Notes under the pieces: generated by a model
What the model was told of the DNA's origin: nothing
Seen by the model: only the letters and a program-made list of their open reading frames with translations
Database searches by the model: none
Translations under genes and position numbers: made by a program
Shown here: in pieces, positions 11,727 to 53,175 of the stretch
How positions within the stretch are numbered: the stretch's first letter is position 1
How the letters are laid out: every line of letters begins with the position of its first letter
NCBI GenBank assembly: GCA_021811105.1
Contig: JAJZPM010000001.1
Location: 1-64,000 of the forward strand
From: Nitrospirota bacterium
GTDB lineage: Bacteria > Nitrospirota > Thermodesulfovibrionia > Thermodesulfovibrionales > UBA6898
Length of the DNA stretch: 64,000 bases
Direction: 5' to 3'

Positions 11727-11764
11727 ATCATTTATCAGGACTGAAAGGGTGAAGGAAACATAGT

Positions 11765-12031
11765 ATGGACGAATTGAAAAGAGAAGGGCTGGCGAGCGGC
11801 GCCCCAAAACTCAGCTTCGGCGCCAAGACGCTCATTCTCGAGGTAACCGATGGTCACAAGCTGTCCCGGCGACAATTCCTCAAAAAAACGGTAGTCGTAG
11901 CTGGCGGCGTGGCGTTGTTTTCCATCGTCCTCGGGGAATCGCGTCATGGCCGACTGGAGGCCGCAGACTGCAGCTGTCATGCGGGGTGCTATACCAATTG
12001 TCATTCGGATTGCGGCCGAAAGACATGGTAA
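11765..12031 (+). CDS. CXXX-repeat peptide with Tat signal, probable RiPP precursor
   Basis: The 88-residue protein has three parts. Residues 1-33 are a polar leader. Residues 34-56 form a twin-arginine signal: S34-R-R-Q-F-L-K40, then a hydrophobic stretch. The short C-terminus has Cys at 69, 71, 75, 79 and 83, giving four tandem CXXX units (CHAG, CYTN, CHSD, CGRK) and a final TW. GAAGGAA lies about 8 bases before ATG 11765. Peptides with CXXX repeats are known substrates of radical SAM/SPASM maturases, and three such enzymes lie downstream after traN. I infer that it is folded and modified in the cytoplasm before Tat export. Metal binding without modification is the main alternative. Confidence 0.65.
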   Translation: MDELKREGLASGAPKLSFGAKTLILEVTDGHKLSRRQFLKKTVVVAGGVALFSIVLGESRHGRLEAADCSCHAGCYTNCHSDCGRKTW

Positions 12032-12206
12032 AAGGCGGCAGCAGGCGTAAGAAAGGACTGAATTCGTTTGTGCAGGCGTCATATGGAAAAGTCTTCGTCC
12101 GCGAGGCTCGCATGCCACAGCGCCGGCGGAGAGGGCGCGACCGCGGACATAAAAATGAAAGGGCCGTAGGGGTCCCCCGAACTGGTTATCAGGTGAGGAA
12201 AGGGCG

Positions 12207-15200
12207 ATGCGAAACTTATTGACGAAGCTTTTCCTTTTGGCGATCATCATATTCTCCTCTCAGGTTTATGCCGAGGACACATCATGCAAGGTGTTCGATC
12301 CCATTACCGGAACGGTAAAGTGGGATGGTGTCAGGTGCGCAGTAGACGTAAACGGAAACGAAAGTATCGACGACTGCAGCGAGCTGTTTGTCTGCTCGAA
12401 ACCTAAAAGTGGCGGTTGGTGCGACAAGTCGGCGGATCCGGTGGGTTATAAATGCATCAGCACAGGCATATATTATCTGGCCCAGGGATTCAATGCCGCC
12501 GGTGTTGACCCCGCCAAGACTGAATTCGTTACCCCCGGCACTGAATTCGAGGCCTGCAACAATTTTGACCCCGCGACGAATCTTGGTTGTCCGGATCAGA
12601 CGTGCTCCCCCATATGGTCGTACACATGCTCAAAAGACAGCAGCGTCTACGCTTCCGGAGAACTCTGCCAGTCAAGTTGCGGAGGGCAATGCTCCTGTTC
12701 TCCCGGCGGGTTCTACAACGACCAGACTAAACTATGCGAGATCGAATCAACGAATCCCTGCCCGACCAATATCCCCTTCGATCCTTCTCTCGGCATATGC
12801 GCGGTCACCATTTATTGTCCTCCCGGCAGCCGCTATGACGAGGAGACCAATTCCTGCATCACCGACACCAGCTACACTTGTCCATCCGGCTTTACCTATA
12901 ACAGTTCGACCGGAAAATGCCAGGCCCTGCCCCAGTGTCCGGACGGGACTTTCTACAATAAGCAAAATGACAAATGCGAATCCGTAACCTGCCCCGCTGA
13001 TTATGTTTTTAATTCCTCTGTGTGGCGCTGCGAAAGGGAGACGGATTGCGGGTCGATACCGCTGAACGCCGATACCCAACAGTGCGAGACGGTGATGGGG
13101 AAATGCACTCCCCTGGACCCGACCGACACGCAGACGGACTACGTGAAGATCTTCATGGGTCTTGCTGAGGAAAACTGGTGCGGGCCCTGCACAACATGTG
13201 TCAGCAAACCCGTGATGACGAATGTAGCCGCAGTCCCCGCGGCATACATCTGTCTCGGCCAGTACAGGATCAATATCGTCTCGAACGAATTCAGAGGGTC
13301 CGGATGGTGCAATTACGACCACTGGATAGTTTACGGGAAACCCTATGCCTGCGATCGGACGGCGACCAACTATGACAGGGATACCTGCGACTCTGTCTGC
13401 CCCTGCCCGGTCGACTATACTCCCGATGTCCCGAACAATATCTGTACAAGGAAGGCCTGCAAGACCGGCGAGACGCTCGACGCGGACGACAAGAAGTGCT
13501 GGGTCGCGCCTACCGTCTGGGGCGGGGGAACTTGTCCTCAGAACTACATTGCGAGGAACGGAAGGTGCGAGGCTCCTTATACATGCACGAACGGCACATA
13601 TAATCCCGAGACGGGGAAATGCGAAAATCTAGGGACGGCGGTCTGCCAATCGCCCTATACAGCCCAGGGACCTGTTTGCGTGTATCCCATCTATTGCTAT
13701 CCCGGCGGGTCCTCGTCCGCCTGGAACCCCACACGGGACAGGTGTGAGCAAACAGGCACGTACTATTGCGAACCGGGATATACCTACAGTCAAAGCTACG
13801 GGAGGTGCATAGCCCCATATATCTGTCCTACCGGTTCTGTCTGGAACCAATACGCTCTCACCTGTGTTCAAGCAGGTGGACAGAATGCCTGCGATGCGGG
13901 ATACACGTGGGATGCCGGCTACCAGCGTTGCATAGCCCCATATATCTGCCCTGCCGGTTCTGTCTGGAACCAATACGCGCTCACCTGCGTTCAAGCTGGG
14001 GGACAGAACGCCTGCGATGCGGGATACACGTGGGATGCCGGCTACCAGCGTTGCATAGCCCCATATATCTGCCCTGCCGGTTCCACCTGGAACCAGTACG
14101 CGCTCACCTGCGTTCAAGCCGGGGGGCAGAACGCCTGCGATGCGGGGTATTCCTGGGATGCCGGCTACCAGCGCTGCGTAGCCCCATATATCTGCCCTGC
14201 CGGTTCCACCTGGAACCAATACGCACTCACGTGTGTTGCGTCAGGCGCCAACTATGGCAACTGTTCCGCTTTCGGATACACCTTCAATACTTCCACTTCG
14301 AGATGCGAGAAGGCACCCGAGTGCGACCAGTCCGGCCAATATGTCTCAAGTAGGGGGCGTTGCGAGTTTAACGGCACAACCAACTGTCCCCCGGACTTCA
14401 CCTGGAACGCGCCTTATTGCGAAAAGACACCTACCTGCCAGGATATCGGCGTTTATGATACTACCACTGACCTTTGCCGTATGACACCGCAGGAAACATG
14501 TCCTCTGGGGGCATACGCGTGTTCCGCCGGCCAATGTACGGCAACTGTAAACTGCGACACTGTTCCGGTAATCGTGTCGATATCGGGCGGAGCTCCTCTT
14601 GCAGTCGAAATAAAGAGCTTCGCAGCGGCGGTAGACGGCAAGAGCATAACCTTTGTTCAATCGGATAATAAAAGCTATCTCATCACCTTGAGCGGATGCA
14701 CCGCGTCAGGCAGTGCAACGATAACCGGGACCAGGTCGTTCAGCGCTTCCAGCAGGAGCATAAGCTTCTTCGACGTGAACAGCAATCTGCTTGGCGCAAT
14801 TAACATCGCCGGATGCAACGTCAGCGGCTCCGGCGTCGACCGCGTCTATGGCCCGATAGCGAACGGAGGTCCTACACTGGACTTCATTACCGGTGCTGTG
14901 ACATTTACGCCTGATTCATCGACCAAATACGAATGCCCCCTCGACCGGACGACGGCATGCACAAATGATCCGGTTCCTACTTGCACGGTCACACGCACAT
15001 GCGCTCAAGCCTGTTCTGCCGGATACACACTCGGGACAGACATCTGTACGGCCCCGGCGACCTGCCCGGCCGGAGGAGTGCTGAATACGCTAAGAGATAT
15101 GTGTCAGATGAACTATGCCGGGATGATATCATGCCCGCCGGGAACGATTGCGGACCTCACATTGGGTGTCTGCCACTATTCGGCCACATGCCCAAATGGA

Positions 15201-18008
15201 GGGACGTTAGATGCGGCCGGGGGCGTATGTTACTTCAGCAGCTGCCCGACCAATTTCACGTGGTGCAACGTCAATAGCTACTGCACATATCATTACGGGT
15301 GGAACAACTATATTTACTCCTATTACGGCGGTTCGGGATGCTACGCCAATGAAAACGCCCCGACCTGCCCGGCAACGCCCAATGCCATACTCACGTCCAA
15401 GGATTATTATCGGTGCTACGAGAGCACAGGAGGGGTCTGTCCGGCGGACTTCAAGTGGTGCGATGTGAATGCCTACTGCATATTCCATTATGGGTGGAAC
15501 TATTATATCTACTCATACATGGGCGGGTCGGCGTGCTATGCAAACGAAAACGTCCCGACTTGCCCGGCAACGCCCAACGCCATACTCACATCGAAGGATT
15601 ATTATCGGTGCTACGAGAGCACCGGCGGCAACTGTCCCGCGGACTTCAAGTGGTGCGATGTAAATGCTTACTGCATATTCCATTATGGGTGGAACTATTA
15701 TATCTACTCATACATGGGCGGGTCGGCGTGCTATGCAAACGAAAACGTCCCGACCTGCCCGGCAACGCCCAACGCCATACTCACATCGAAGGATTATTAT
15801 CGGTGCTACGAGAGCACTGGCGGCAACTGTCCCGCGGACTTCAAGTGGTGTGACGTGAATACATACTGCATATTCCATTATGGGTGGAACTATTATATCT
15901 ACTCATACATGGGCGGGTCGGCGTGCTACGCAAACGAAAACGTCCCGACCTGTCCGGCAGCCGTTCAGCCAATCAGCAAGGACTATTATCGATGTTATAT
16001 AGGAACAATAGGGTGTCTCACCGGTTATGGATATACCCTCGATGAGGCAAACCGCGTTTGCTATAATCCCAACAATCCGACCTGTCCTGCCCCCGGAGCA
16101 ATAGACAACGCTCTCGACAAATGCTCCGCACCGCCCACGCAGATAATTTGTCCTGCCGGCTACACATGGAGCGGAACCGGCAAAGTCTGCCAGAAGAACC
16201 CGGAATGTCCCCAGGCTATTTCTACGAAAGACGGAAGGGTCCTGCCTACGTATTTCGATCAGGAACACGGCGTATGCTGGACCTGCAGCGAGAACTTTAT
16301 TTTCAATCCCACGACGGGCACATGCCAGACAGATCCTTACTGCCCGGAAGGCACACTCCTGAACCCGACGCTCGATATATGTGAGAGTGTCGCGGAAATA
16401 GCGTGTCCATCCGGAACTCGATACGAGCCCGCGACAGGCCACTGCATATCGCCGGCAGCTTGCCCCAACCCCCAGTGTTCTCAGGGGTGTTGGGACAAAA
16501 ACCTCAATCAATGCAATCCCGATGCTCAGCAGCCGTGCCCTTTCATCGATACCTACGATCCTATTCTTAAGATGTGCACCTTGAACGGCACAGCCGAGTG
16601 TCCGGTGGACTATGTCTTCAACGCAGCTACAAAAAAATGCGAGCAGACTCCGCAGTGCCCGCCTACAGACTGGATATGTCCCAGGGACACCGATCCGGTC
16701 TGCAAGGAAACCTCTCCCTATGGAAACAAGAACTGGAAGGAGGTAAGTCAAGGGGAGTATTGGACCTTCGCGACCACGGTCAACCCTATGACATACAGCG
16801 AATTCGAGACTGTGACGAACTATCACGATTATGCGGCTGCCATGACGACTCTGGACGATAAGGAAGATATATGGAAGTACTATGGTCAGGGCCCTTTCTG
16901 GATCAAGAACGCCATTCTTTACCAGGACGTTTATCTGAACATCGCCGATTGTACTTATCAGGACTTCGTAGGCAGCACGCCCCCAAGAAAGTGGCGGCCG
17001 AGAAACTTCGCAGTAAATAAGACCTGCAGCAACCCCACTCTTTCCTGGGAGCGATATGAGGAGTCGTGCCTGTGCAAAACGATCAAGGAGGAGACCTTCA
17101 CGCGGTCCTGTAGCGGAGTGACGTTCAACGAGACGCTCACAAATACAAAGCTCACCCCGTCGGACATGTCGACGTGCACAAGCGACCCCGTTCCAACGTG
17201 CACGGCAGGACTTCAGCAGCCCGGCCTCAACAAATGCGACATACATCAGGAGGATTTCTCGGGCTCCATAGTCTGCGGGACAAACGCTTATTCCAAGACA
17301 CGTGTACTGACGACTTGCGCGGATTCGACGCAGGCGATCATCCCGGTGGAGTACAGGTCCGTATCCAGCCTGCGCGGCGTCGTGAAATGGTCTGGCATAA
17401 AGTGCACGCCCTGCCTGACGGCCGACCAGGCCACCGAAGACGATACCCCGTCCGGTCCCGAGCAGCCCATCGACCAGACAAAGCAGTGCACGAACTTCAA
17501 GGTCTTCACTGGGCATGACAAGAGATGCACTCCGACATCTCTTGCAACGCTCTTCAGCAATTGCTGTAACCTCAGCGGGTGGTTCAAGAGCTGGTGCAGC
17601 AACGAGGAGAGGGAGCTCAAGAAGAGGCGGATGGGCGGAACCTGCACCGAGGTGGGGGACTACTGCGCAAAGCGCATCTTCGGAATCTGCATCAAGAAGA
17701 AAGAGACATACTGTTGTTTCAACTCGAAGCTCGGAAGAATCATCAACGAGCAAGGACGCCCTCAGATAGGAAAATCCTTCGGATCGGCGAAAAACCCCGA
17801 CTGCGAGGGGTTCACTCCGGAAGAGCTATCCAAACTGGATTTCTCACGCCTGGATCTTAGCGAGTACATCAACGACATGCAGTCCGAGATGGATGTCACC
17901 GGCGGGCAGTTGAAGGCTGTCGAGGGGATGCAGAACTGGTTCAATAACCAGAACGGCAATTCTCAGAACAAATCCTTCAGCCCCGGATCGACCGATACCG
18001 GCTATTAG
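12207..18008 (+). CDS. traN: Giant mating-pair stabilisation protein TraN
   Basis: The 1933-residue protein has a signal peptide (LLTKLFLLAIIIFSSQVYA) and a very Cys-rich body. Its C-terminus shows the TraN signature: a paired-Cys block (KETYCCFNSKLGRIINEQG), then PDCEGFTPEELSKLDF and a DLSEYIND end. F TraN is about 600 residues, so this protein is some three times longer. The extra length is made of Cys-containing modules such as CP-x-G-x-x-(Y/F)-N-x-x-x-x-x-C, including two sets of tandem repeats. TraN in the donor outer membrane recognises the recipient, so the repeats probably project outward as an adhesin-like stalk or tip. ATG 12207 follows GAGGAAAGGG. Folding should need the DsbC-like and TraF proteins. 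Confidence 0.85.
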   Translation: MRNLLTKLFLLAIIIFSSQVYAEDTSCKVFDPITGTVKWDGVRCAVDVNGNESIDDCSELFVCSKPKSGGWCDKSADPVGYKCISTGIYYLAQGFNAAGVDPAKTEFVTPGTEFEACNNFDPATNLGCPDQTCSPIWSYTCSKDSSVYASGELCQSSCGGQCSCSPGGFYNDQTKLCEIESTNPCPTNIPFDPSLGICAVTIYCPPGSRYDEETNSCITDTSYTCPSGFTYNSSTGKCQALPQCPDGTFYNKQNDKCESVTCPADYVFNSSVWRCERETDCGSIPLNADTQQCETVMGKCTPLDPTDTQTDYVKIFMGLAEENWCGPCTTCVSKPVMTNVAAVPAAYICLGQYRINIVSNEFRGSGWCNYDHWIVYGKPYACDRTATNYDRDTCDSVCPCPVDYTPDVPNNICTRKACKTGETLDADDKKCWVAPTVWGGGTCPQNYIARNGRCEAPYTCTNGTYNPETGKCENLGTAVCQSPYTAQGPVCVYPIYCYPGGSSSAWNPTRDRCEQTGTYYCEPGYTYSQSYGRCIAPYICPTGSVWNQYALTCVQAGGQNACDAGYTWDAGYQRCIAPYICPAGSVWNQYALTCVQAGGQNACDAGYTWDAGYQRCIAPYICPAGSTWNQYALTCVQAGGQNACDAGYSWDAGYQRCVAPYICPAGSTWNQYALTCVASGANYGNCSAFGYTFNTSTSRCEKAPECDQSGQYVSSRGRCEFNGTTNCPPDFTWNAPYCEKTPTCQDIGVYDTTTDLCRMTPQETCPLGAYACSAGQCTATVNCDTVPVIVSISGGAPLAVEIKSFAAAVDGKSITFVQSDNKSYLITLSGCTASGSATITGTRSFSASSRSISFFDVNSNLLGAINIAGCNVSGSGVDRVYGPIANGGPTLDFITGAVTFTPDSSTKYECPLDRTTACTNDPVPTCTVTRTCAQACSAGYTLGTDICTAPATCPAGGVLNTLRDMCQMNYAGMISCPPGTIADLTLGVCHYSATCPNGGTLDAAGGVCYFSSCPTNFTWCNVNSYCTYHYGWNNYIYSYYGGSGCYANENAPTCPATPNAILTSKDYYRCYESTGGVCPADFKWCDVNAYCIFHYGWNYYIYSYMGGSACYANENVPTCPATPNAILTSKDYYRCYESTGGNCPADFKWCDVNAYCIFHYGWNYYIYSYMGGSACYANENVPTCPATPNAILTSKDYYRCYESTGGNCPADFKWCDVNTYCIFHYGWNYYIYSYMGGSACYANENVPTCPAAVQPISKDYYRCYIGTIGCLTGYGYTLDEANRVCYNPNNPTCPAPGAIDNALDKCSAPPTQIICPAGYTWSGTGKVCQKNPECPQAISTKDGRVLPTYFDQEHGVCWTCSENFIFNPTTGTCQTDPYCPEGTLLNPTLDICESVAEIACPSGTRYEPATGHCISPAACPNPQCSQGCWDKNLNQCNPDAQQPCPFIDTYDPILKMCTLNGTAECPVDYVFNAATKKCEQTPQCPPTDWICPRDTDPVCKETSPYGNKNWKEVSQGEYWTFATTVNPMTYSEFETVTNYHDYAAAMTTLDDKEDIWKYYGQGPFWIKNAILYQDVYLNIADCTYQDFVGSTPPRKWRPRNFAVNKTCSNPTLSWERYEESCLCKTIKEETFTRSCSGVTFNETLTNTKLTPSDMSTCTSDPVPTCTAGLQQPGLNKCDIHQEDFSGSIVCGTNAYSKTRVLTTCADSTQAIIPVEYRSVSSLRGVVKWSGIKCTPCLTADQATEDDTPSGPEQPIDQTKQCTNFKVFTGHDKRCTPTSLATLFSNCCNLSGWFKSWCSNEERELKKRRMGGTCTEVGDYCAKRIFGICIKKKETYCCFNSKLGRIINEQGRPQIGKSFGSAKNPDCEGFTPEELSKLDFSRLDLSEYINDMQSEMDVTGGQLKAVEGMQNWFNNQNGNSQNKSFSPGSTDTGY
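13803..14235 (+). repeat. 123-base tandem repeat in traN (about 3.5 units)
   Basis: Units starting near 13807, 13930, 14053 and 14176 are nearly identical and encode a 41-residue module with the strings WNQYALTC, CDAGYTWDAGYQRC and APYICPAG. The last unit is shortened. The frame is kept, so the repeat is coding and can grow or shrink without frameshift. Confidence 0.85.
15243..16000 (+). repeat. 195-base tandem repeat in traN (four units)
   Basis: Units start near 15243, 15438, 15633 and 15828. Units two to four are almost identical at the DNA level; the first is more diverged. Each encodes 65 residues with WCDVNAYC, FHYGWNYYIYSYMGG and TSKDYYRCYES. The near identity points to recent expansion or ongoing gene conversion. 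Confidence 0.85.
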
Positions 18009-18036
18009 CACCGAAGGGCGGAAGTAATATGAGTAC

Positions 18037-19125
18037 ATGATCACGATATTCAAGCCTACCCTCAGATGCAATATCCGGTGTACTCACTGCTTCGTCGGGG
18101 ACCAGAGGACCGCATACCGGGATATGTCGCGGGAGGACGCCATCGAAGTGCTCTCCAGGATCCCGGCCGGGTCTGAATTGATATTGCACGGCGGCGAACC
18201 GACCTTGTTAGGGGTAGATTATTACAGGGACATATTCGCCCCTCACCGGGGGAAGTTCCACACATCGATTCAAACCAACCTCATGCTCATCGACGACCGC
18301 TGGGTGGATTTTATAGGAAACGACCTTAGAGGAAGAATGAGCACCTCGTTCGACGTTGCAGCCTCCCTTCGGCCTATCGATACCGCCCTCTGGCTGGCTA
18401 ACATTAAGAAGCTCAAGAATAGGGGGATATACCCCTATGTCGTCAGCATGCTCTGGCAGGGCAATGAAGACAGTCACCGCGACATGTATGACTTCTTCGA
18501 TTCACTGGACCTCTCATTCCGCCTGAATCCCGTCGAGAATATCGGATACGCCAAGGCGAGATTCGGCCAACTCCGCCATGGACGCCTCAAGTATGCCGAG
18601 GCTGTAATCCACCTCTTTGATCAGTGGTTTATGGCCCCCCGCGCGAAAATCATAGTCGACCCGTGTGCCGAGATACTGAGTTTCCTGGTTATCGGTAATT
18701 CCGTGAGAAAATGTCCGTTTACCGCGAAATGCGCCCTTCACTTTATCAGCATCAACCCAGACGGATCGGTATTTCCCTGCGGAGGGTTCGACGATTTCAC
18801 CGGATTCAATTACGGGAACCTGCTGACCAACACCTTGCAGGAGGTAATGAACTCCCCTGTCCGGATCGAGGCATCGAGGCGCGGCGACAGGCTGCCCGAT
18901 GACTGCTATAAGTGTTCATACTTTCCTGTTTGTAATGGAGGCTGCAGGCTTGAGGCCTATAGCTATCACGGAGACATATACAAAGAGACCTCCCTCTGTG
19001 ATGATTACATGAAGATATTCCGGCACATAGAAGGAAGGCTTCAGAGCGAAAAAGGCGACGTAAACGACTGGTGGTTCACGCTTTATGAGAGGAGGGAGGA
19101 GATTAATGGGCACGATCTATCTTAA
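18037..19125 (+). CDS. Radical SAM/SPASM protein 1
   Basis: The 362-residue enzyme has the radical SAM cluster motif C11-x3-C15-x2-C18 (CNIRCTHC), followed by GGEPT, and a C-terminal SPASM-type Cys set: CPFTAKC, FPCGG, CYKCSYFPVCNGGC and a last LCDDY. The first cluster would reduce S-adenosylmethionine; the SPASM clusters usually help bind a peptide substrate. It starts 29 bases after traN and overlaps the next enzyme gene by 20 bases, so it is in one transcript with it. The likely substrate is the CXXX peptide upstream; the Cys-rich TraN is an alternative. Confidence 0.88.
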   Translation: MITIFKPTLRCNIRCTHCFVGDQRTAYRDMSREDAIEVLSRIPAGSELILHGGEPTLLGVDYYRDIFAPHRGKFHTSIQTNLMLIDDRWVDFIGNDLRGRMSTSFDVAASLRPIDTALWLANIKKLKNRGIYPYVVSMLWQGNEDSHRDMYDFFDSLDLSFRLNPVENIGYAKARFGQLRHGRLKYAEAVIHLFDQWFMAPRAKIIVDPCAEILSFLVIGNSVRKCPFTAKCALHFISINPDGSVFPCGGFDDFTGFNYGNLLTNTLQEVMNSPVRIEASRRGDRLPDDCYKCSYFPVCNGGCRLEAYSYHGDIYKETSLCDDYMKIFRHIEGRLQSEKGDVNDWWFTLYERREEINGHDLS

Positions 19126-20053
19126 GATAACTCGCCGCTGTAACATAATGTGCGGTCACTGTTTCATCAGGGAGTACGAAGGGGACATGGCGACACAGGT
19201 CATCGCCAGAGTCGCACAGTCGTTTCCCTCGTCCATTATTGTTTTCCACGGCGGCGAACCCACTCTGGCAGGGGTCGAGTATATCGAGGAAGCCATCTCG
19301 GTCCTCGGCAATCGTACCTACCTACTGCAAAGCAACATGATCGATTTCGGCCCCATATGGATCCCGCTTCTGAAGAAACACTTCGACAGCAGAATAGGTA
19401 CAAGTCTTGACACTTCCAGGATGCCCTATATTGACCGATGGCTTTCCAACATCAGACGTGCGGCGAATAACTCGATTCACGTGACGGCCGTGGTTACTAT
19501 CACGGCAGATATGACGGTAAAGGAGCTGGCCGGACTCCTCGATCGTTTTGAAGAGGCAGGGGGAACAGCCTTCAGACTCCAATTTGTCACACCGGTCAAG
19601 ACGCCGCCTGTGTCGAAGAAAGACTATGTGACTTTCATAAAAACGTTTTATGACCACCCTCTAAATGAAAGCAGACGAAGAATCGAGGGCGCGGCATGTT
19701 TCGCGGCCCACAGCGGAATCAACGGGGGTAATTGCGGGAGGAACCTCAGGACCATAGACCCCGATGGGACAGTTTACATCTGTCCCGATTTGGCGGGGCA
19801 GGGACTCTTTCCATTGGGCAATGTTCTCAATGACGACGCCCAGGCGCTGATCGGAGCCGAAAAGATGTTCTTTGAGCGAGAGAGGCGACTTGCCCTGGAA
19901 TGCGACGAGGAGTGTTGGCGACTCTGCAGGGGAGGCTGCCTGGCCGCGGCCTATTTTCAGAAAGGCGACTGTATGGGAAAAGACCCCTACTGCAGTTCCT
20001 ATAAAGAGATATTTTCCTTTGTCAGAGGGAGGAATCGTTCAGTCCATGCGTGA
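19106..20053 (+). CDS. Radical SAM/SPASM protein 2
   Basis: ATG at 19106 is chosen because a strong GGAGGGAGGAG stands just before it; ATG 19085 lacks a site. The 315-residue product has C12-x3-C16-x2-C19 (CNIMCGHC), FHGGEPT, and a C-terminal set with NCGRNL, YICPDLAG, CDEECWRLCRGGC and a closing PYCSSY. It resembles protein 1 in length and order and probably arose by duplication. It overlaps both neighbours, so equal amounts of the three enzymes would be made. Confidence 0.87.
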   Translation: MGTIYLKITRRCNIMCGHCFIREYEGDMATQVIARVAQSFPSSIIVFHGGEPTLAGVEYIEEAISVLGNRTYLLQSNMIDFGPIWIPLLKKHFDSRIGTSLDTSRMPYIDRWLSNIRRAANNSIHVTAVVTITADMTVKELAGLLDRFEEAGGTAFRLQFVTPVKTPPVSKKDYVTFIKTFYDHPLNESRRRIEGAACFAAHSGINGGNCGRNLRTIDPDGTVYICPDLAGQGLFPLGNVLNDDAQALIGAEKMFFERERRLALECDEECWRLCRGGCLAAAYFQKGDCMGKDPYCSSYKEIFSFVRGRNRSVHA

Positions 20054-21056
20054 AGGCGCCGCATACAATATCGTCGTCACCAATGACTGCCTGATCCGGT
20101 GCGGCCACTGTTTCATGGACAGAAAGGCCGTCAAATTTCTGAGCATGGATACTGTTAGGGCGATCACGGCCAAGATACTGTCGTTCGACAAGACCCAGGA
20201 CATAAACTGGGGGGGAGGGGAGCCTCTTATTCTGGGACGAGGGTATCTCAGAGGTATGGTTTCCCTTGAGTGTTTCGAGGACCCCGGCACGAGAAATCTC
20301 CTGTATTCGACATATCAGATAGAGCTCGATAACGACTGGAGCGATATCCTCAATCGATTTGATGCCCTGATGTTCAGCATTGATTCTTATCGAGGCGCTC
20401 AAACCAACTTCAGCTCCGGACTCGCTCTCTCCAATTTGAAGAGACTCTCTCCTGAAAAGCACGTATCGTATACCCCGATGGTCGGCGATACTCCCGAGAA
20501 AGTCGCCGGATATTATGCTCAGGCCCTGGATCTCGGCGCCGAGATGTTTCATCTGGGGTTCCTCTACTCAAGAAAATTGATCCCTCCCGCCACATACCTC
20601 AGGCTCATTGACGACCTCCTGGACCTCCAGGTCTCGCTCGATGGACCGGGAATAGGATTTTTCCATAAATCTCAGGACTGCGGCGGCGATTATAAGTCGG
20701 CTGTGGGATGGAGGGGGTATGACTGTTTTGACAAGGGCATGTACTTTTCGAATGACGGCATTGTGACGCCGTGTTTCATCATGTACAGCCTGGGTTTCGA
20801 TGTCCCTCATATCAGGATCGGGGAGTTCTTGTCAGAAGACACGGACATCTTCGGCCTCAATAAGAAATACGCGGCTGAGTTTTTCATCAGAAGCCGTGAG
20901 GGGAAATGCCTCGAATGTCCCTATTATACTCTTTGCATGGGAGGATGTCCCTACTTCACGGCGCGTTCTGAAACCGGCATCGATTATTACTGCGAGGTAT
21001 ACAAGAGAATCTTTGAGACTCTTCTCGGAAGGAACCACAGGGAGGTTTGTTCGTGA
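20046..21056 (+). CDS. Radical SAM/SPASM protein 3
   Basis: ATG at 20046 follows GAGGGAGGAAT; the longer frame from 19872 lies inside protein 2 and is rejected. The 336-residue product has C15-x3-C19-x2-C22 (CLIRCGHC), WGGGEP in place of the usual GGEP, and a SPASM-type tail with TPCFIMY, CLECPYYTLCMGGCPY and YYCEVY. It is more diverged from proteins 1 and 2 than they are from each other. The stop overlaps the next gene's start as GTGA. Confidence 0.86.
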   Translation: MREGAAYNIVVTNDCLIRCGHCFMDRKAVKFLSMDTVRAITAKILSFDKTQDINWGGGEPLILGRGYLRGMVSLECFEDPGTRNLLYSTYQIELDNDWSDILNRFDALMFSIDSYRGAQTNFSSGLALSNLKRLSPEKHVSYTPMVGDTPEKVAGYYAQALDLGAEMFHLGFLYSRKLIPPATYLRLIDDLLDLQVSLDGPGIGFFHKSQDCGGDYKSAVGWRGYDCFDKGMYFSNDGIVTPCFIMYSLGFDVPHIRIGEFLSEDTDIFGLNKKYAAEFFIRSREGKCLECPYYTLCMGGCPYFTARSETGIDYYCEVYKRIFETLLGRNHREVCS

Positions 21057-22687
21057 TAACGATCGGGCTCAACAACAATACTCTTCGGTATCGATATCTT
21101 CAGGAGATGGCAGCGCCCCCCTCGAAGGCTGAAACAGCGCCTTACTACATCTTCGACAGGTATGGGGTGGATTTCCTCGACCGACTCTACATGCTTCAAA
21201 GCTGCGTCACGGCATGTCATGCGCTTGTCCTCTTCGAGCCGCGCGACACGGAAAAAGTCCTGCGCCACATAAACATCCTCGACGGCTTCACTTTTACGCT
21301 GGTGCCGACCGAAATAGATCCCGAGGTCTATGGCAGCATTTATGAATTCTTCATGCACTCCCGGCTTTCGACATCATATATAACCTGGATATCCAAACTC
21401 CTGCTAAGGCCCCATAGGGAAGTCGGCAGTGTCACATTCAACGATATACCTGTCGAATACGCCAAGTGTCAGGAAATCTGTCCGATGCGCGTCAAGGACT
21501 GCAGTAAAGGGCTTCTTTTTACCGAGTTGTTCCATCCGATGAAGGAGTTTCCGACGGATGACGATTTCCGGAAATTCTGTGCCGTCCACAAAGAATATTC
21601 CCTGCGCATAGTGCAGGACTATCTCAATAGCGACCTCGACCTGCCGGAGTTCAGCAGAATTCGCCGAAACTTCGGGATACGCAACCAGTACTGGATAGAC
21701 CCCCAGCGTATTTTCGTGGGAGAAGCCGTCAGCAAAGAGGCGATCATACAGGGTGAAAAGTCCTGGCTTCAAAGAGTTGGACAAGAAGAAGGGAACGGAA
21801 AACCTGTCGACGCGATTGTGACCCTGCTGGACACTCGCTTCGAGAACTCAACTCCGACGGTGGAGGTTGGCTTCACCGCATTTGATAGGGATAGCTTTGC
21901 CCTGGTTATTGACCGTAACGACGAAGCCGAAGGGGACAGCCTGGCAAAGTATATCGACGCCATGGTTTCGGAAATCAAGGGCCCCTCACTCCACGAATTG
22001 TCCTCGGCGATCGTCTCGTCGGATATCGTACAGAATTATCCCCTGGTCAAAATGGACTGCGACAGATATAACGGAAGTGTGGAGCGCGTTTCCATCTATT
22101 ACAGATTCTCGGAGAGGCTTCGTGGTCTCGGGGCGTTGCGCGATCTTTTTGAAGCCCGCCCCTTTGAGATGATATTTGTCCCTGAGCGGCTGCAGCCTTA
22201 TCTCGATCTCGCAGGCAAGGACATCCAGTCAGCCGGATTTACATTGAAGGTGCGGCCCACAACCGGCGAACAAATACTGAGGTTGTGGGTAAATATCCCC
22301 TTCAAGCTGGCATTCGCATACGCTATGGTAAATCTCTCCGACGCCGAGAAGGAAAACACGAAAGCCTTCGCCCCCTATATTAGGAAATGCTATCCGGACA
22401 GGCTCGACAGCGTTTTTATGGGCGTAGACGCGGCTTCCAACCGGGAGAATTCCCCCCTGGTTTTTTCTATAGATGTCCCAGACATTACCGGGGCGGAGCT
22501 GGTCGAGCTTCTGGCTCATTTTGGAGACGTGGGAGCGGACGAGAAGCGCATACAACTCCTTGCCGGCGACAACTGGCGGAATGTCGAGTTTGACTACGTC
22601 AAGTTCAGGCCCGTAAGGACAGGCGAGGGAGTCTCGATCAAATACAGCCTCTCCTATGGGAAGACTCTGCCTAAAGGGAGTATATGA
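21053..22687 (+). CDS. Unknown protein coupled to the radical SAM genes
   Basis: GTG at 21053 is preceded by GGGAGG with good spacing; the alternative TTG 21047 is too close. The 544-residue protein has no signal peptide. It contains a Cys cluster near residue 135 (CQEICPMRVKDC) and a further Cys about 40 residues later, which could hold a metal or Fe-S centre. No radical SAM motif or kinase motif is visible. It overlaps the enzyme upstream and the gene downstream, so it probably belongs to the same pathway, perhaps as a substrate carrier or scaffold. I do not recognise the family. Confidence 0.7.
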   Translation: MITIGLNNNTLRYRYLQEMAAPPSKAETAPYYIFDRYGVDFLDRLYMLQSCVTACHALVLFEPRDTEKVLRHINILDGFTFTLVPTEIDPEVYGSIYEFFMHSRLSTSYITWISKLLLRPHREVGSVTFNDIPVEYAKCQEICPMRVKDCSKGLLFTELFHPMKEFPTDDDFRKFCAVHKEYSLRIVQDYLNSDLDLPEFSRIRRNFGIRNQYWIDPQRIFVGEAVSKEAIIQGEKSWLQRVGQEEGNGKPVDAIVTLLDTRFENSTPTVEVGFTAFDRDSFALVIDRNDEAEGDSLAKYIDAMVSEIKGPSLHELSSAIVSSDIVQNYPLVKMDCDRYNGSVERVSIYYRFSERLRGLGALRDLFEARPFEMIFVPERLQPYLDLAGKDIQSAGFTLKVRPTTGEQILRLWVNIPFKLAFAYAMVNLSDAEKENTKAFAPYIRKCYPDRLDSVFMGVDAASNRENSPLVFSIDVPDITGAELVELLAHFGDVGADEKRIQLLAGDNWRNVEFDYVKFRPVRTGEGVSIKYSLSYGKTLPKGSI

Positions 22688-23649
22688 CGATGGCTGAAAA
22701 GACGGAATTGACCGTTCATATCGACAATTTGCCCAGGGAAGGGAAGAATATCCGGGTCGTCATGACAAACTCAAGAACCCTCAGGGAGCATGCCGGGGGT
22801 GGAAGGATACACGGGCCATCCCTTGTTTTCTCAGATATAGAGAAGGAAAGAGGGGATAGGCACTATTTCGAGATTGTCATCCTCGACGGCGCCGATCAAG
22901 TCATAGACAAGGCATATATCAACGCCGATCTGCCTCAAAAGAAGAATATCATATCCATAAGCCTGGTAGGCGGTATCTGGCGTCTGGAACGGGAGATCAA
23001 TATAGGCGGGAATGTTTACGACCGAATCGTAATAGACCCACTTGATGAAAAAAGGGGAGCCTTGACCTGCGGGACCCATTCTTTTCGCCTGTTTAACAGC
23101 AAAACTGGAGACCAAACCGCTACAGGAGTGTTTTGTTATTACGTCACCGACCGCGAATCTTCTCTTTATGGCGTCGAGGGGATAGAACTCGTAAAGGGCG
23201 CCGATACCCCACAGGATATGCTCATTTGCAACGAAAACCTATTCAATATGGACCTCCAGGCGGGGGCAGTTATAGACACCGAACTCCGAAATGCGGTATT
23301 TACTGACAGGCCTTACCCGTATACCGTGGAAAAGAAGAGGGATCATGTAGAGTTCAGGCTCTGGATAGCCCAGAGCATTCCCAAGAGGGCCAATGTCATC
23401 CAGACCTTGGATATCAGGGAATTCAGGAAAAGACTGGATGCCCTGTCCTCATCACTTTCCTATCGCAATTCATTGCCCCGGATTGAGGACGGCAAAATGA
23501 TCCTTTTGAGGGATGTCCCGGTGCTCCATTTCCGGAAGCAATGCATTGCACAGTACAAGGTATTCCCATATAGTTACAGCTCGGTAACTCTCATATCTGC
23601 ACTGTATGACATAGCGATCCAGAAGGTAAGGGCTGTCAAACTCATATAA
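22684..23649 (+). CDS. Unknown protein, last gene of the modification operon
   Basis: ATG at 22684 overlaps the previous stop as ATGA and follows AAAGGGAG. The 321-residue product has no signal peptide. The N-terminal 100 residues are beta-rich; the rest mixes charged and hydrophobic stretches. I see no motif that names a family. No coding sequence follows for 281 bases, so it closes the operon. Confidence 0.65.
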   Translation: MTMAEKTELTVHIDNLPREGKNIRVVMTNSRTLREHAGGGRIHGPSLVFSDIEKERGDRHYFEIVILDGADQVIDKAYINADLPQKKNIISISLVGGIWRLEREINIGGNVYDRIVIDPLDEKRGALTCGTHSFRLFNSKTGDQTATGVFCYYVTDRESSLYGVEGIELVKGADTPQDMLICNENLFNMDLQAGAVIDTELRNAVFTDRPYPYTVEKKRDHVEFRLWIAQSIPKRANVIQTLDIREFRKRLDALSSSLSYRNSLPRIEDGKMILLRDVPVLHFRKQCIAQYKVFPYSYSSVTLISALYDIAIQKVRAVKLI

Positions 23650-23930: not shown

Positions 23931-25622
23931 ATGGATGAGCATAAAGATATAGATTGGTTGGATCGAGATTCAAACCAAATTGAAGGTTTGGACCATCTGG
24001 GTATACAGGCCATATCTGTTGCTATGTATACAAAGCTTCTTCCTGGAATAACAAACGTCACTGATAGAGCACGTTATTTTAGCTTTTACCCATGGCTGTT
24101 ATCTAAATATGACCCAGCGCAAAGTGGTAACTGGTACATCTTCATAAGGCGTCATGAATTCCTGCTGTCCCTTGCGTCTAATTACGCAGTGCACTTGGGG
24201 AAGGCGGACCCGACATACGATGGCGGCGCTGTTGTGGGCTCCGATAGAGCAAAAGATGCAATAGCAGCCTCCACCGCATTAAGAAAGATCCCTTTGGAGG
24301 ATTATACAGCCCTCGACTCAAAAGGGAAAAGAGGCGCAAAAGGGAGCTATTTTAAGAACAAAGAAGGTGGATATGACCAATACTATAAGAGGCAGCTTGA
24401 TATTCTGAGAATAACCACCGAGTCCGATTCAGTCGGCATACCGGACAGAGACATCGTGAAACAAGTTGGCTCTCAGATTGCCGCCTCGGTTGATAGCCAA
24501 TCAGGGTTTAAAGAGCTCAGCAAATTAGCAAGTAAGGACGTCGTCTCCTTTGCTGAATTGGAGCGACTCTCTGATCTCGTTCCGCCCTGGAAAGTTCCAG
24601 AGGACTCCAAAGAAGAACAGATGCTCTGTAATAGTTTTTTCGGATTAGATGAGGCGGCACTTACGTCGCAGGACAAAACGGAGCTATCTGCCCGTCGCAA
24701 TTCCCTCCTGTTACTTCTCTCATTCTTGAAGGAAGCAGCAGCGCCTCACTCAATAGACGAACTGGTTTATGAGTTTAGGTGGTGCGTTATGTTCAATTGC
24801 CTTCCGAATGGTCGTCCTTGGACTGTTGATGAAAAATTGACCGTGACAAGAAACATGTGGGGCATTTATCAATTGCAGGATGTTTTTAATTATACACTCG
24901 AAAACTTTTTGTGGGCGATCCTCGAAGCACTCGACCAGCCCGACGAATGGCCTGCTCAGATCGATGCCCTTATCCAAAAAATGATCGCCACTGTAACCAA
25001 ACAATTCTTATTGCATGAAACCACAAAATACATCAAGAAATCCGTAAAGCCAAGAACGGTCAAGGACTATCTGTTCAACTCGAAACGATCTTCTGATGAA
25101 GACGGCAGAGATCCTTTTGACAAATATAGCGACAGATACATTTTTGAGAAACTGAGAGCTGCCCAGGATATAGATGAGACCTTGGTGCTTGGTACACATA
25201 TGCTATGCAGATTATTGTCACGAGTGGCTTCACCTGTTTATGGCTTATTCGATTTTGATATTGATTTCCTGAAACGATACCCATTGAACCTAGAATACAT
25301 GCCTAAAAAGGTACAGGCCATGAATGACCTCCCCATCGATGTATTTCTCCAACATCATCTGAAAGAAATCATCATAAAAAGACATCTTAAGGTTGCCGCA
25401 AGGAAGTTAAGCCATCAAGGACAATCCACATTCAAATTCATACCTGACTCTGGAAGGCTAATAAGAATCTCTGAAAAACCCGTGCAGCCGACACTGACAA
25501 GTCCCAGACTAAGACAGGCCATTAGAATATTGTGTGACCTTCATCTAATATCATTTGATGATCAGGGACTGAGGCTGACTGACAAAGGGGAAAGGATCGT
25601 TCAGGATTGCTATGCCCTATAA
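23931..25622 (+). CDS. Unknown 563-residue protein, probable defence component
   Basis: The protein is cytoplasmic, without signal peptide. A string near residues 38-55 (TNVTDRARYFSFYPWLL) resembles a motif seen in defence-associated DUF6361-like proteins, but I am not sure of the family. The C-terminus (about residues 515-560) looks like a winged-helix domain with LRQAIRILCDLHLISFDD and LRLTDKGERI. Base composition is more AT-rich than in the transfer genes, so the block was likely acquired separately. It overlaps the next gene by 11 bases. A DNA-binding or sensing role in phage defence is inference. Confidence 0.6.
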   Translation: MDEHKDIDWLDRDSNQIEGLDHLGIQAISVAMYTKLLPGITNVTDRARYFSFYPWLLSKYDPAQSGNWYIFIRRHEFLLSLASNYAVHLGKADPTYDGGAVVGSDRAKDAIAASTALRKIPLEDYTALDSKGKRGAKGSYFKNKEGGYDQYYKRQLDILRITTESDSVGIPDRDIVKQVGSQIAASVDSQSGFKELSKLASKDVVSFAELERLSDLVPPWKVPEDSKEEQMLCNSFFGLDEAALTSQDKTELSARRNSLLLLLSFLKEAAAPHSIDELVYEFRWCVMFNCLPNGRPWTVDEKLTVTRNMWGIYQLQDVFNYTLENFLWAILEALDQPDEWPAQIDALIQKMIATVTKQFLLHETTKYIKKSVKPRTVKDYLFNSKRSSDEDGRDPFDKYSDRYIFEKLRAAQDIDETLVLGTHMLCRLLSRVASPVYGLFDFDIDFLKRYPLNLEYMPKKVQAMNDLPIDVFLQHHLKEIIIKRHLKVAARKLSHQGQSTFKFIPDSGRLIRISEKPVQPTLTSPRLRQAIRILCDLHLISFDDQGLRLTDKGERIVQDCYAL

Positions 25623-28206
25623 ACTGCTTTCCAGATTGAAGCCGACAGAGGGCAGGTACCATTCAAGCATCCTTCTGACATATTCGTTTGATGCTGATTT
25701 TTATGGCCAGGTTATTAGGCGGCGGCTCTCTCAAATGGGAGCAAATAACCAGATTGTTCTAATGGATGCTGGGTGTTATGAGCAAACTCTCAGTTGGGAT
25801 TTATCTTCGGCAAAAGATCTCGGACGATTATATAGCGTGTCCCCGATTTTTACCACAGCTGCATTCCATCCTAAAATACTGTTCCTGCTGGGCAAAGAAG
25901 GTGGGAGGCTCATTGTAGGAAGTGGCAATGCAACGACGGGGGGTTTTCTAAAGAACTGGGAGATATTCGGTGAGTTTGAGGCTTTGGCCGATGAACCGAT
26001 ACATCCTGCATTCCGTGAAGCATGGCGGCTTGTTGAATCTTTGAAGAACGTATTGCCTGAAACAGTTCAATATCAGTTATCAAAGTCCAGAGACATGTCG
26101 GCGTGGCTGGATAATTCTCTTATGGTGGGAGACAACCGAGAACTACTCATCAATACGAAAGATGCGTTATATAACCAGATTATCAAACGAATAAATGAGA
26201 AGTCTCCTAAGAACATCGTCTTAATATCACCTTATTGGGATGAAAGGCTCGAAGTCTTGAATCAACTAAAAACGGCATTCCCTAAAAGCAAGTTTTCAAT
26301 CATTGTTCAATCTGATATTGTCAATCTCAGCGGTGCCGCCGTCAGTAACCTGGGGAAACAGTTTCAGTGGTACAACTTCAACGCTCCCTACGGTGATGAA
26401 GAATGGTCGCTGAGCAAAAGGACCTTTCTTCATGCAAAATTGCTCTTGTTTGAACTTCCCGACGAAGATTTGGCATTTTATGGATCTGCAAATATCAGTA
26501 GAGCGGCGCTACTTAAGAAACCGCTATCGGGGAACTATGAAATTCTAATCGGAATACGTTTCCCGAAGGGTGAAGTAAGGAAAAGGCTTGCTCTGCAGCA
26601 GACTGTTGACAGCGCCCCCATTACTGCAGACTTAATCTCAAAGAAATGGCTATCGGATGATAGATTAGCTTCCAATAATAGTCACATCGCGCTTATTGCA
26701 GTTGAGATTGAAGAAAGCTTGTTAACAGTAAAAGTTGATGCAACGTTATCAAGCGAAGCGAGATTGCAGCTATTCTCGATTAATCAGGAAAAGCTGATGG
26801 AATTGTCGCTGAGATTCGATAACCAGAGTAATCTCTATATTGCATCTTTCCGCTCATCTACAAGGGACTGCCACTTTGCCAAGGTCATATCAAAAGGTCA
26901 GGAGTCTAACTTTGTTGCGATAACAGATCGAGCATCTATAATTTCAGCATGCATGCCGCCTCTTCAGGCCAAGTATGAGAAAGCTCTAAATGACATAAGC
27001 GGAGGCAGAATATCTATCGATATAGTTGATATAGTGGAACTTCTGGCAGACCATCTCTATAGCCAGTCTGTCTCGAAAGATCACGTTGTCCACAGAGGCC
27101 GAAAGGAAGATCCCAGTCAGGAACAAAGAAAACCTATTGAAGTGGACGCGGGCCAGGCTCGCCGCGAATCAAGCAAAAGTGGCGGCTATTCCAGCGATAT
27201 AGATTTACTGGTATCACTTTTCGGGCCAACTATGCCTAAGAGGAGCCCAGCGAAAGAGGAACCCGATTGGTCAGACGAAGAGGCTTTGCTTGATGAGGAA
27301 GCACGCAAGGAGGAGGTAAACAGGGGCACAGAAGAGGAGCGCCCTGTTGGCGTACCACGAAGGGAGAAAGAAACAGAAATCCCATCCACGATAGTAGTTG
27401 AAAAGGCTAAAAGAAAGTTAAAGCGGCGTCTCGAAGGTGCTCTTGAAAGGGTGGCAGAATGTCTTGATGCAGAGGCTCCATTTGACCGGCATCAGCTGCT
27501 TAGATGCTGTGCAATGGCAAGGATTGGAGCTGCCATATTGAATCGAGAGATTGAGACATCAGAGGGCTCTAAAATTATCCTATTAGATGACCGCGGATAT
27601 TCTGAATTCGTCCTGGAGATGGTGAGAATGCTATTTGGAGGAAAGAAAGGAGGCTTGATCGCGAGGTGCCCATCTGAAACATGGAAAAGTATAGGCCGAT
27701 CGGAGACTATTAAGGCGCTTCAGTTTTTACGAACGGCAATGACATATGCAGCATTGACGTTTCCTAAATATCTTCATGAAGCATCAAAGAACATGGAAGA
27801 AGAGACCGACGGAATTTACTATGGGGCATTATATTCTGATCTTGTCGGTGCCAGATTAGCTGCCTTTCTTGATAGTCGGAAAATAGGTATTGATACAAGT
27901 TGCATTTCTGGCATTTGTATGAACGAAAGCCTTCACGATAAAGACTTACGACAGATCGACGAGAGATTCAGCGTGCTTGCAAAAAAAATAAGGCGAATTG
28001 AGACATCACCTAAATATCCAGATCGAATATCTCAGCCAGAACAGGGAGATTATGTTTTCTCTGCAGTTCTTGGCGTTACCGTTGTAGATGAAATTGAGGG
28101 AGATAAGATGATTCTCCTGGATTTTGATTCCGAAAAGGACTTGACTCGAAAATATCAGATGAAAACCGCAAAATATTATAAACTTTCTTTGCATGAGGCA
28201 AGTTGA
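25612..28206 (+). CDS. Phospholipase D-like protein, probable defence nuclease
   Basis: The 864-residue protein has two phospholipase D-type half-sites in its N-terminal part: H-P-K followed by GSGNATTGG (about residues 82-110) and H-A-K followed by YGSANISRAAL (about residues 275-300). Such paired HxK...GS(G/A)N motifs form one nuclease or phosphodiesterase active site. The middle and C-terminal parts (from about 500) have a charged linker and then a helical domain that I cannot name. In defence islands such proteins often act on foreign DNA. It overlaps the previous gene and is followed after 29 bases by the DUF6884-like gene. Confidence 0.68.
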   Translation: MPYKLLSRLKPTEGRYHSSILLTYSFDADFYGQVIRRRLSQMGANNQIVLMDAGCYEQTLSWDLSSAKDLGRLYSVSPIFTTAAFHPKILFLLGKEGGRLIVGSGNATTGGFLKNWEIFGEFEALADEPIHPAFREAWRLVESLKNVLPETVQYQLSKSRDMSAWLDNSLMVGDNRELLINTKDALYNQIIKRINEKSPKNIVLISPYWDERLEVLNQLKTAFPKSKFSIIVQSDIVNLSGAAVSNLGKQFQWYNFNAPYGDEEWSLSKRTFLHAKLLLFELPDEDLAFYGSANISRAALLKKPLSGNYEILIGIRFPKGEVRKRLALQQTVDSAPITADLISKKWLSDDRLASNNSHIALIAVEIEESLLTVKVDATLSSEARLQLFSINQEKLMELSLRFDNQSNLYIASFRSSTRDCHFAKVISKGQESNFVAITDRASIISACMPPLQAKYEKALNDISGGRISIDIVDIVELLADHLYSQSVSKDHVVHRGRKEDPSQEQRKPIEVDAGQARRESSKSGGYSSDIDLLVSLFGPTMPKRSPAKEEPDWSDEEALLDEEARKEEVNRGTEEERPVGVPRREKETEIPSTIVVEKAKRKLKRRLEGALERVAECLDAEAPFDRHQLLRCCAMARIGAAILNREIETSEGSKIILLDDRGYSEFVLEMVRMLFGGKKGGLIARCPSETWKSIGRSETIKALQFLRTAMTYAALTFPKYLHEASKNMEEETDGIYYGALYSDLVGARLAAFLDSRKIGIDTSCISGICMNESLHDKDLRQIDERFSVLAKKIRRIETSPKYPDRISQPEQGDYVFSAVLGVTVVDEIEGDKMILLDFDSEKDLTRKYQMKTAKYYKLSLHEAS

Positions 28207-28235
28207 ATACAAAAGTGCTTTTAGGAAACTGAGGG

Positions 28236-28649
28236 ATGAAGAGGATCGTGTTAATATCATGTGTAAGCATGAAGCTAAAGCGGTCGGCTAAGGCACGAGA
28301 TCTTTATATTAGTCCACTGTTTAAGAAAGCGTTAGCCTATGCCTATACATTTAGCCCTCACAATATCTTCATTCTGTCAGCAAAGTATCACCTGGTCTCT
28401 CTTGATCAAATTATTAGCCCCTATGACCTGACTCTTAACGATATGAGTACAAGGGAGATCAAGGCCTGGGCAGACAAGGTGACCGATCAACTGGAAGATA
28501 AAGCAGATTTAGATAGAGACGAGTTTGTCTTTCTTGCCGGTACGAATTACCGCAGGTTTCTTACACCAAGGGTGAAGAGATATAAAATCCCGATGGAAGG
28601 ACTTGGAATAGGAAAGCAGTTAAGGTTTTTGACTCAGAAGCTAAAATGA
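28236..28649 (+). CDS. DUF6884-like protein
   Basis: The 137-residue protein fits a family of small proteins found in defence islands: VLISCVSMKLKRSAKARDLY, then SPLFKKALAYA, then ILSAKYHLV and ISPYDLTLNDM. The conserved Cys near the N-terminus (residue 9) and the AKARDLY string suggest a nucleotide- or base-binding pocket, but the activity is unknown. Start is ATG 28236 after GAGGG. It is joined to the next gene by a 4-base ATGA overlap. Confidence 0.65.
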   Translation: MKRIVLISCVSMKLKRSAKARDLYISPLFKKALAYAYTFSPHNIFILSAKYHLVSLDQIISPYDLTLNDMSTREIKAWADKVTDQLEDKADLDRDEFVFLAGTNYRRFLTPRVKRYKIPMEGLGIGKQLRFLTQKLK

Positions 28650-53091: not shown

Positions 53092-53175
53092 CAGATTTTC
53101 ACAACTCACACATAACCGCTTCATATCTTGCTGGTATGCTTAAACCATGACGAAGAGGAAAGGAGGTGAATGAAG

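Follow-up and report, generated by a model that had tools for sequence, protein, structure and literature searches.

A predicted Tat-exported CXXX peptide and three radical SAM/SPASM enzymes encoded within an F-type conjugation operon of a Nitrospirota bacterium

Genes around traN

The window analyzed here covers the initial 64 kb of contig JAJZPM010000001.1 (294 kb), which belongs to a Nitrospirota genome of 3.94 Mb. It carries an F-type conjugative transfer operon in which the gene for TraN is preceded by a gene for an 88-residue peptide, with a predicted twin-arginine translocation (Tat) signal and a CXXX-containing tail, and followed by genes for three radical S-adenosylmethionine (rSAM)/SPASM enzymes and by two further open reading frames (ORFs), ORF5 and ORF6. 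This block contains the following features (window positions and strand).

11765..12031, +: precursor peptide, 88 aa, with a long n-region, Tat signal and Cys/His/Tyr-rich C-terminus (TIGR01409 over cut-off, Shine-Dalgarno sequence upstream)
11864..11884, +: twin-arginine motif SRRQFLK, residues 34-40 (read from sequence; fits the consensus S/T-R-R-x-F-L-K)
11963..12028, +: likely mature peptide ADCSCHAGCYTNCHSDCGRKTW, assuming a cut between LEA and AD; CHAG CYTN CHSD CGRK and terminal Trp (read from sequence)
12207..18008, +: TraN, mating-pair stabilisation, 1933 aa, two Cys-rich tandem repeat arrays (PF06986, 113.5 bits)
18037..19125, +: rSAM1, radical SAM/SPASM enzyme (PF04055 and PF13186 over cut-off)
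19106..20053, +: rSAM2, radical SAM/SPASM enzyme (PF04055 40.1 bits, TIGR04085 34.9 bits)
20037..21056, +: rSAM3, radical SAM/SPASM enzyme (TIGR04085 31.9 bits; CX3CX2C and CX2CX5CX3C motifs)
21047..22687, +: ORF5, 546 aa, no known family (no Pfam, NCBIfam, PADLOC or PDB relative)
22684..23649, +: ORF6, ~320 aa, no known family, final gene of the conserved block (no Pfam or NCBIfam match)

The peptide (MDELKREGLASGAPKLSFGAKTLILEVTDGHKLSRRQFLKKTVVVAGGVALFSIVLGESRHGRLEAADCSCHAGCYTNCHSDCGRKTW) is encoded by a single-copy gene with a Shine-Dalgarno-like AAGGAAAC upstream. It scores 17.9 bits with the Tat model TIGR01409 (NCBIfam cut-off 16.7) and 18.6 bits with PF10518, under the cut-off of 22.7. 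A hydrophobic stretch lies behind the Tat motif, and two TatC genes are present in the same genome. Motif and profile predict the peptide to be a Tat substrate in a host that has TatC, in agreement with a first-pass annotation of the sequence, and the LEA-AD cleavage site is plausible. The tail CSCHAGCYTNCHSDCGRKTW consists of 22 residues with five cysteines, at positions 69, 71, 75, 79 and 83 of the peptide, which make up the four CXXX units of that annotation plus one extra Cys. TIGR04117, the model for CXXX-repeat rSAM targets, gives the peptide 19.2 bits against a cut-off of 50, which leaves it outside the family, and no member above cut-off was found in a search of two phyla. Two apparent TIGR04117 matches (L010 and L011) were rejected, as they were read in the wrong frame with internal stops. 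In single-sequence scans of genome and viral contigs, neither the peptide nor rSAM1 nor ORF5 had a close relative.

All three enzymes carry the CX3CX2C motif and exceed the cut-off of 27 bits for the SPASM-type model TIGR04085 (rSAM1 scores 56.3 bits), whereas the Pfam cut-off for Radical_SAM (PF04055) is passed by rSAM1 and rSAM2 only and that for SPASM (PF13186) by rSAM1 only. The SPASM cluster motif of rSAM2 is unusual, CX3CX3CX3C in place of CX2CX5CX3C, and rSAM3 may start at GTG 20037 or ATG 20046. Overlaps were confirmed for rSAM1/2, rSAM2/3, rSAM3/ORF5 and ORF5/ORF6, so that the arrangement previously described, of three overlapping rSAM/SPASM genes and two coupled orphan genes past traN, stands. 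At superfamily level the three are predicted to be rSAM/SPASM peptide maturases. The best named model for rSAM1 is DynA, at 184.8 bits against an equivalog cut-off of 450, and DarE also scores high; the anaerobic sulfatase maturase model reaches 119.8 bits of the 349 required. Further high-scoring models for rSAM1 represent families that modify peptides, and several of these form cyclophanes. The same families match rSAM2 and rSAM3 at lower scores, and none of the three enzymes reaches an equivalog cut-off. TIGR04115, the CXXX-repeat maturase (cut-off 350 bits), is absent from the best 25 models of each enzyme, a list that for rSAM1 extends down to 36 bits. The profile search suggested in the first-pass annotation thus placed the enzymes in the rSAM/SPASM superfamily, and neither they nor the peptide in the known CXXX families TIGR04115 and TIGR04117. 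The closest PDB sequence to the window enzymes is an anaerobic sulfatase-maturating enzyme. Structure models of ORF5 and ORF6 had mean pLDDT values of 32 and 39 and were unusable.

TraN owes its length to a pair of tandem arrays, one with 3.5 copies of a 123 bp unit and the other with 3.6 copies of a 195 bp unit. These Cys/Tyr/Trp-rich arrays lie at 13806-14237 and 15255-15959, and TraN frames in other sampled elements are shorter (196-937 aa).

Conservation and rarity of the block

Positions 8038-23643 of the window recur at 95% identity in a Nitrospirae metagenome-assembled genome (MAG) of the same order and another family (L022; G437:C100, JAMCQB010000091.1). Peptide, TraN, rSAM1-3, ORF5 and ORF6 stand there in identical order, and rSAM1 of this low-coverage contig has a one-base indel. 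Substitutions between the two copies are mostly synonymous and the peptide tail is identical. The ratio of non-synonymous to synonymous substitution rates (dN/dS) comes to 0.02 for TraU, 0.13-0.14 for the rSAM genes, 0.15 for the peptide, 0.18 for ORF6 and 0.26 for ORF5. The block is under purifying selection. The low dN/dS, together with the recurrence of the block in a different MAG, indicates that the block is more than a product of chance. The L022 copy fits a transfer of the element, although the contig may be mis-binned.

The surroundings of the block are as follows.

8526..9575, +: TraU (PF06834, 277.7 bits), context gene
9807-11726: 639-aa protein without assignment, between TraU and the peptide gene
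23931..29293, +: defence cargo (ZacAB-like, PDC-M57AB; PADLOC), after the conserved block, at the alignment break with L022
35136..49908, +: TraE, TraK, TrbI/TraB, TraC, S26 peptidase, TraF, TraH and TraG (Pfam over cut-off), remainder of the F-type transfer operon

Pfam cut-offs are passed by TraU, TraN, TraE, TraK, TrbI/TraB, TraC, TrbC, TraF, TraH, TraG and a VirD4-type coupling protein, which identifies the operon as belonging to mating-pair formation type F (MPF_F) and bears out the location first assigned to the block. The operon around the block is a complete F-type conjugation system. Similarity between the two copies ends just past ORF6, where the defence genes differ; the block is therefore backbone, and cargo follows it. 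This supports the view that the peptide and the three rSAM/SPASM enzymes are part of the conserved backbone of the transfer operon. At the cargo spot (15614-16780), L022 carries another predicted defence gene, PDC-S06 (PADLOC). No Rfam elements were found within the block. Past the tra operon, at 51045-63641, the ORFs read as genes for a two-component system, a P-type ATPase and a multicopper oxidase.

TraN is present in 37 of the 396 sampled genomes of the phylum. Neither an rSAM gene nor an exported CXXX peptide was found near traN in the 36 other traN genomes, several of which have short contigs, so the block is a rare addition to F-type elements. A survey of such elements, as had been suggested, therefore recovered the gene set in the L022 copy and not in these 36 genomes. 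Among the 396 genomes ORF5 was found only in its own; it is also present in L022 and was not found in the plasmid set described below. rSAM3-like matches in G198 and G320 were rejected as related loci, having neither traN nor a CXXX peptide.

Parallel modules in conjugative plasmids and jumbo phages

Pseudomonas megaplasmids were found by tblastn with rSAM1 as the query. One of them, pQBR57, has three rSAM genes straight after the pilus genes, followed by the gene for a Sec-type 124-aa protein ending in GYCHTACHGACHGACHGSRGWR (signal types of all peptides other than that of the window were judged by eye). The same order is found in IncP-2 plasmids, pMPPla107 (ending GCYSNCYSNCHGSRSWR), Pseudomonas sp. 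FeN3W and P. amygdali. Rhizobium leguminosarum pRlX5 (CYSNCHDACHGACHGSRGWR), Cysteiniphilum (CYSNCHSACHGSRGWR) and an Oceanospirillaceae MAG have a pQBR57-like order, as does a Methylococcales MAG, but with two of the three enzymes. The module, namely prepilin/PilV, three successive rSAM enzymes (r1, r2 and r3), an exported C[HY]xx...SRGWR peptide and a partner protein of family A4 downstream, is thus seen in Pseudomonas, Stutzerimonas, Oceanospirillaceae, Rhizobium and Cysteiniphilum, with related arrangements in Vibrio, Photobacterium and Methylococcales. In Vibrio hepatarius (CHGNCHGNCHGNHSSRGWR) and Photobacterium the peptide lies between the first and second enzyme. A prepilin-type gene in the PilV position precedes the enzyme set in most loci, and an ATPase-like gene does so in these two. 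The setting is the MPF_I-type or thin-pilus region of megaplasmids. The peptides have Sec-type N-termini and end nearly always in C[HY]xxC[HY]xxCHGSRGWR; the Pseudomonas-type peptide is present in 129 plasmid records. The plasmid module loci (L014, L015, L018-L021, L039, L051, L066, L069, L073, L080 and L099) have two or three rSAM genes, and the peptide is called "hypothetical" wherever the plasmid record has annotation.

In phylogenetic trees r2 and r3 form starred clades spanning alpha- and gammaproteobacteria, and an r1 clade of the same span has weaker support (Shimodaira-Hasegawa-like approximate likelihood ratio test, SH-aLRT, 93 in one tree and 19 in another). Since each of the three groups across these two classes, the trio is old. 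The first-pass annotation had counted enzymes without a peptide against the pairing of the two. Such cases exist in the plasmid set: in V. parahaemolyticus pVP-16-VB00198-1 the trio and the partner are present but a peptide could not be detected, and r1 and r2 occur in two alphaproteobacterial MAGs that lack a CXXX peptide, whereas the near relative of the window, L022, has both. A candidate SRGW-ending peptide on the V. parahaemolyticus plasmid was rejected, being only the fragment ARFYVGNTRWWR. One of the alphaproteobacterial MAGs encodes a secreted protein (L065, 14147-14872) ending in KSWGN...GWGKWE, a possible Trp-based substrate for the enzymes of this module. The Photobacterium peptide ends in WCHNNHSNHSKHHHWKSW, in which all Cys but one are lost and His-x-Asn is kept; for this tail, a Cys thioether would be no better an explanation than an aromatic-x-Asn cross-link.

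Three reports (PMC4989453, PMC7070040, PMC13391042) describe the rSAM cluster of pQBR and IncP-2 megaplasmids as conserved but assign it no role, and the passages found in them make no mention of a peptide beside it. A literature search on rSAM enzymes with conjugation, PilV or CXXX repeats returned no description of the system. Recipient choice has been assigned to PilV in TP114 (PMC9045228) and to TraN in F-like plasmids (PMC9246713).

A scan of IMG/VR with an rSAM1 alignment led to large viral contigs, which were followed up with a profile made from the plasmid tails only. This profile matched rSAM-cluster proteins of L209 (ending CYSDCHSNCYDSRGRR), L214 (CHSNCHSNCHSNCHTNRSRR), L216 (CHSNCHSNCHSNHRSRR) and L213. 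The L213 protein runs on into a chaperone-of-endosialidase domain, which is typical of tail fibres. L212 has a similar stretch, recognized by pattern, and a tail protein upstream. In all, rSAM-cluster proteins with CHxSCHxS... were found in 5 IMG/VR contigs and in all 4 isolated jumbo-phage lineages reached via a related rSAM: Burkholderia phage FLC6 (ending CHSSCHTSCHGSRGRR), Pseudomonas phage pPa_SNUABM_DT01 (CHTSCHTSCHSARGRR), Agrobacterium phage Atu_ph07 (CHSSCHASCHNSRSRR) and Sinorhizobium phage Phosso (CHTSCHASCHSSRSRR). These proteins have no export signal. One rSAM per phage cluster groups with plasmid r1 (SH-aLRT 94, not starred). The rSAM clusters of L209 and L212-L220 encode a protein with CHxS/CHxN repeats that are mostly C-terminal, and the description of Atu_ph07 does not mention rSAM enzymes.

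Interpretation and comparison with known systems

We interpret the block as a system for a ribosomally synthesized and post-translationally modified peptide (RiPP) integrated into the part of an F-type conjugative element that makes mating contact, and put the probability of this reading at roughly 50%. The 88-aa precursor would be made in the donor, with its n-region of about 33 residues serving as the recognition leader. rSAM1-3, perhaps helped by ORF5 and ORF6, would cross-link the tail CHAG-CYTN-CHSD-CGRK-TW in the cytoplasm, by thioethers at Cys, by cyclophane-type links spanning three residues (aromatic-x-x) at H-A-G, Y-T-N and H-S-D, or by both. The modified product would then be exported by Tat and cleaved between LEA and AD. 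Its place of action would be the periplasm or the cell surface, where, together with the mating-pair machinery centred on TraN, it would serve as a small and stable contact or adhesin component. The link chemistry and the roles of ORF5 and ORF6 are speculative.

That the peptide is the substrate of the rSAM enzymes and is exported by Tat seems quite probable from the gene sequences, given that peptide, rSAM genes, ORF5 and ORF6 are co-conserved under purifying selection and the catalytic motifs are intact. The substrate-maturase set proposed in the first-pass annotation is still the most likely arrangement, as peptide and enzymes co-occur in the sole other copy found, albeit outside the known CXXX family TIGR04117. 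Its further suggestion, that Tat export follows from cross-linking, does not hold: the plasmid peptides are Sec-type and the phage proteins lack an export signal. Modification thus does not force Tat export; possible reasons for its use in the window are a rigid tail, or cofactors or partners that fold beforehand. A role of the modified product in mating contact comes close to an even call. It is argued by analogy, since the plasmid trio and its C[HY]xx peptide mostly follow PilV-type adhesin genes and a tail-fibre domain adjoins the tail in one phage protein. In a wider version, conjugative elements and jumbo phages would share a hitherto undescribed device in which rSAM enzymes harden short C[HY]xx tails at protein C-termini by cross-linking and so make contact or adhesin tips, located on pili, TraN and tail fibres or next to them, the window being a distant Tat-exported branch in an F-type element. 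We regard this version as possible, on the doubtful side.

The link to the plasmid and phage modules starts from the window tail, which has His or Tyr after three of its Cys (CHAG CYTN CHSD, by eye) and a basic/Trp end, as in the plasmid and phage tails; this resemblance is no more than suggestive. Several findings weigh against the reading as a mating-contact RiPP system. With the plasmid-tail profile the window tail is the best non-member among 29,854 ORFs, yet with E=0.06; with the phage profile it reaches E=0.68, and the combined profile does not match it. The window enzymes fall outside the plasmid/phage r1-r3 clades, with rSAM3 too divergent to place. rSAM1 scores 165 bits with the r1 profile, within the 140-175 bits of generic sulfatase-maturase-like enzymes, and this score together with the trees led us to reject orthology with r1. 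hhalign detected no homology between ORF5 and the plasmid partner protein A4, and the plasmid peptides carry Sec-type rather than Tat signals. The window block is known from two copies only, and its absence from the 36 other traN genomes means that it is not essential to F-type transfer. With enzymes that are not orthologous to the plasmid trio and a tail match that is only suggestive, common descent is unproven; the window block is either a very old branch or a separate origin with the same logic.

The standing of DynA and DarE among the rSAM1 models, and the predicted export of the product, would also suit a RiPP akin to darobactin or dynobactin, secreted as an antimicrobial against neighbours or as a signal to them, for which a place in the tra operon would provide co-expression with cell contact. 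The scores are far under the family cut-offs, however, no exporter, protease or immunity gene is recognizable in the block, and in the phage analogues the tail belongs to virion-type proteins that have no export signal, which makes this explanation unlikely. The rSAM enzymes might instead modify TraN or another Tra protein, with the Tat peptide as a separate small protein. Their genes come straight after traN, which is unusually long and has Cys/Trp/Tyr repeats, much as the plasmid rSAM genes mostly come straight after a PilV-like gene. However, it is the CHGSRGWR tail of the peptide encoded beside the plasmid enzymes that is strictly conserved, a tail of the same kind is found on another protein beside the phage enzymes, and TraN of other elements occurs without rSAM genes; we consider a Tra substrate improbable. 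The alternation of Cys with His/Tyr, and copper genes (P-type ATPase and multicopper oxidase, as read from ORFs) 27-40 kb away on the contig, could point to a cargo-encoded factor that serves copper or electron transfer, either by binding metal or heme or through redox activity. This is decidedly improbable in view of the position of the block in the tra backbone, apart from the copper genes and ahead of the cargo, which begins only after ORF6, and of the Photobacterium analogue, which retains a single Cys. Finally, a chance neighbourhood, with a coincidental CXXX tail and enzymes acting on something else, would explain why the window enzymes have no close relatives of known substrate and why the tail profile match is not significant, but it is very hard to credit when the pairing of rSAM enzymes with C[HY]xx tails recurs in plasmids and phages and the block is conserved with an identical tail.

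If the reading as a mating-contact RiPP is correct, radical SAM peptide chemistry would be tied to the selection and retention of a recipient by conjugative elements. The reading would also offer a testable function, with a substrate peptide of known sequence, for the conserved rSAM cluster that three reports list, without explaining it, as a backbone feature of the pQBR and IncP-2 megaplasmids; multidrug resistance is spread by some of these plasmids. The presence of such tails next to rSAM enzymes of jumbo phages suggests that contact structures are built in a common way.

Among described enzymes, the dynobactin/darobactin- and sulfatase-maturase-type rSAM/SPASM proteins (NF041298, NF038005, TIGR03942) are the top named models for rSAM1 and share its rSAM-SPASM architecture without a RiPP recognition element, but the window scores are a third to half of the cut-offs or less and the putative substrate resembles neither dynobactin nor a sulfatase. 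TIGR04117 (Syntroph_Cxxx) shares the CXXX repeats, and its profile also aligns over the Tat region of the window peptide; the window nevertheless falls well short of its cut-off. A peptide from the same taxonomic class, L009 (G201:C121, 1441-3253), has a Tat-type RRTFL motif and many CXXX units, scores 31 of 50 bits with TIGR04117 and adjoins a 473-aa PapB-like rSAM; its units are CT/CS-rich, whereas those of the window are CH/CY, and the 3.3 kb stretch seen holds no transfer genes. This case shows that the Tat-CXXX pairing is not unique to the window. The first-pass annotation had known of no comparable example, a statement that has to be narrowed in view of L009, where Tat and CXXX meet beside an rSAM outside conjugation, and of the very similar modules in MPF_I-type/thin-pilus regions. 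The jumbo-phage clusters resemble the window in having several rSAM enzymes and a protein with CHxS repeats and a basic end, near tail genes in two IMG/VR contigs, but differ in that the tail sits on a larger protein without an export signal, fused in one contig to a tail-fibre chaperone. The "arylsulfatase/radical SAM" region of the Pseudomonas megaplasmids (pQBR57/pQBR103, IncP-2) differs from the window in its Sec-type leader, MPF_I/thin-pilus setting, SRGWR ending, conserved partner protein and further rSAM genes downstream. Like the window, it has three tandem rSAM genes in a transfer/pilus region by an adhesin-type gene, and a small exported peptide with C-terminal CXXX units, in which each Cys is followed by an aromatic residue or His and a Trp lies close to the end.

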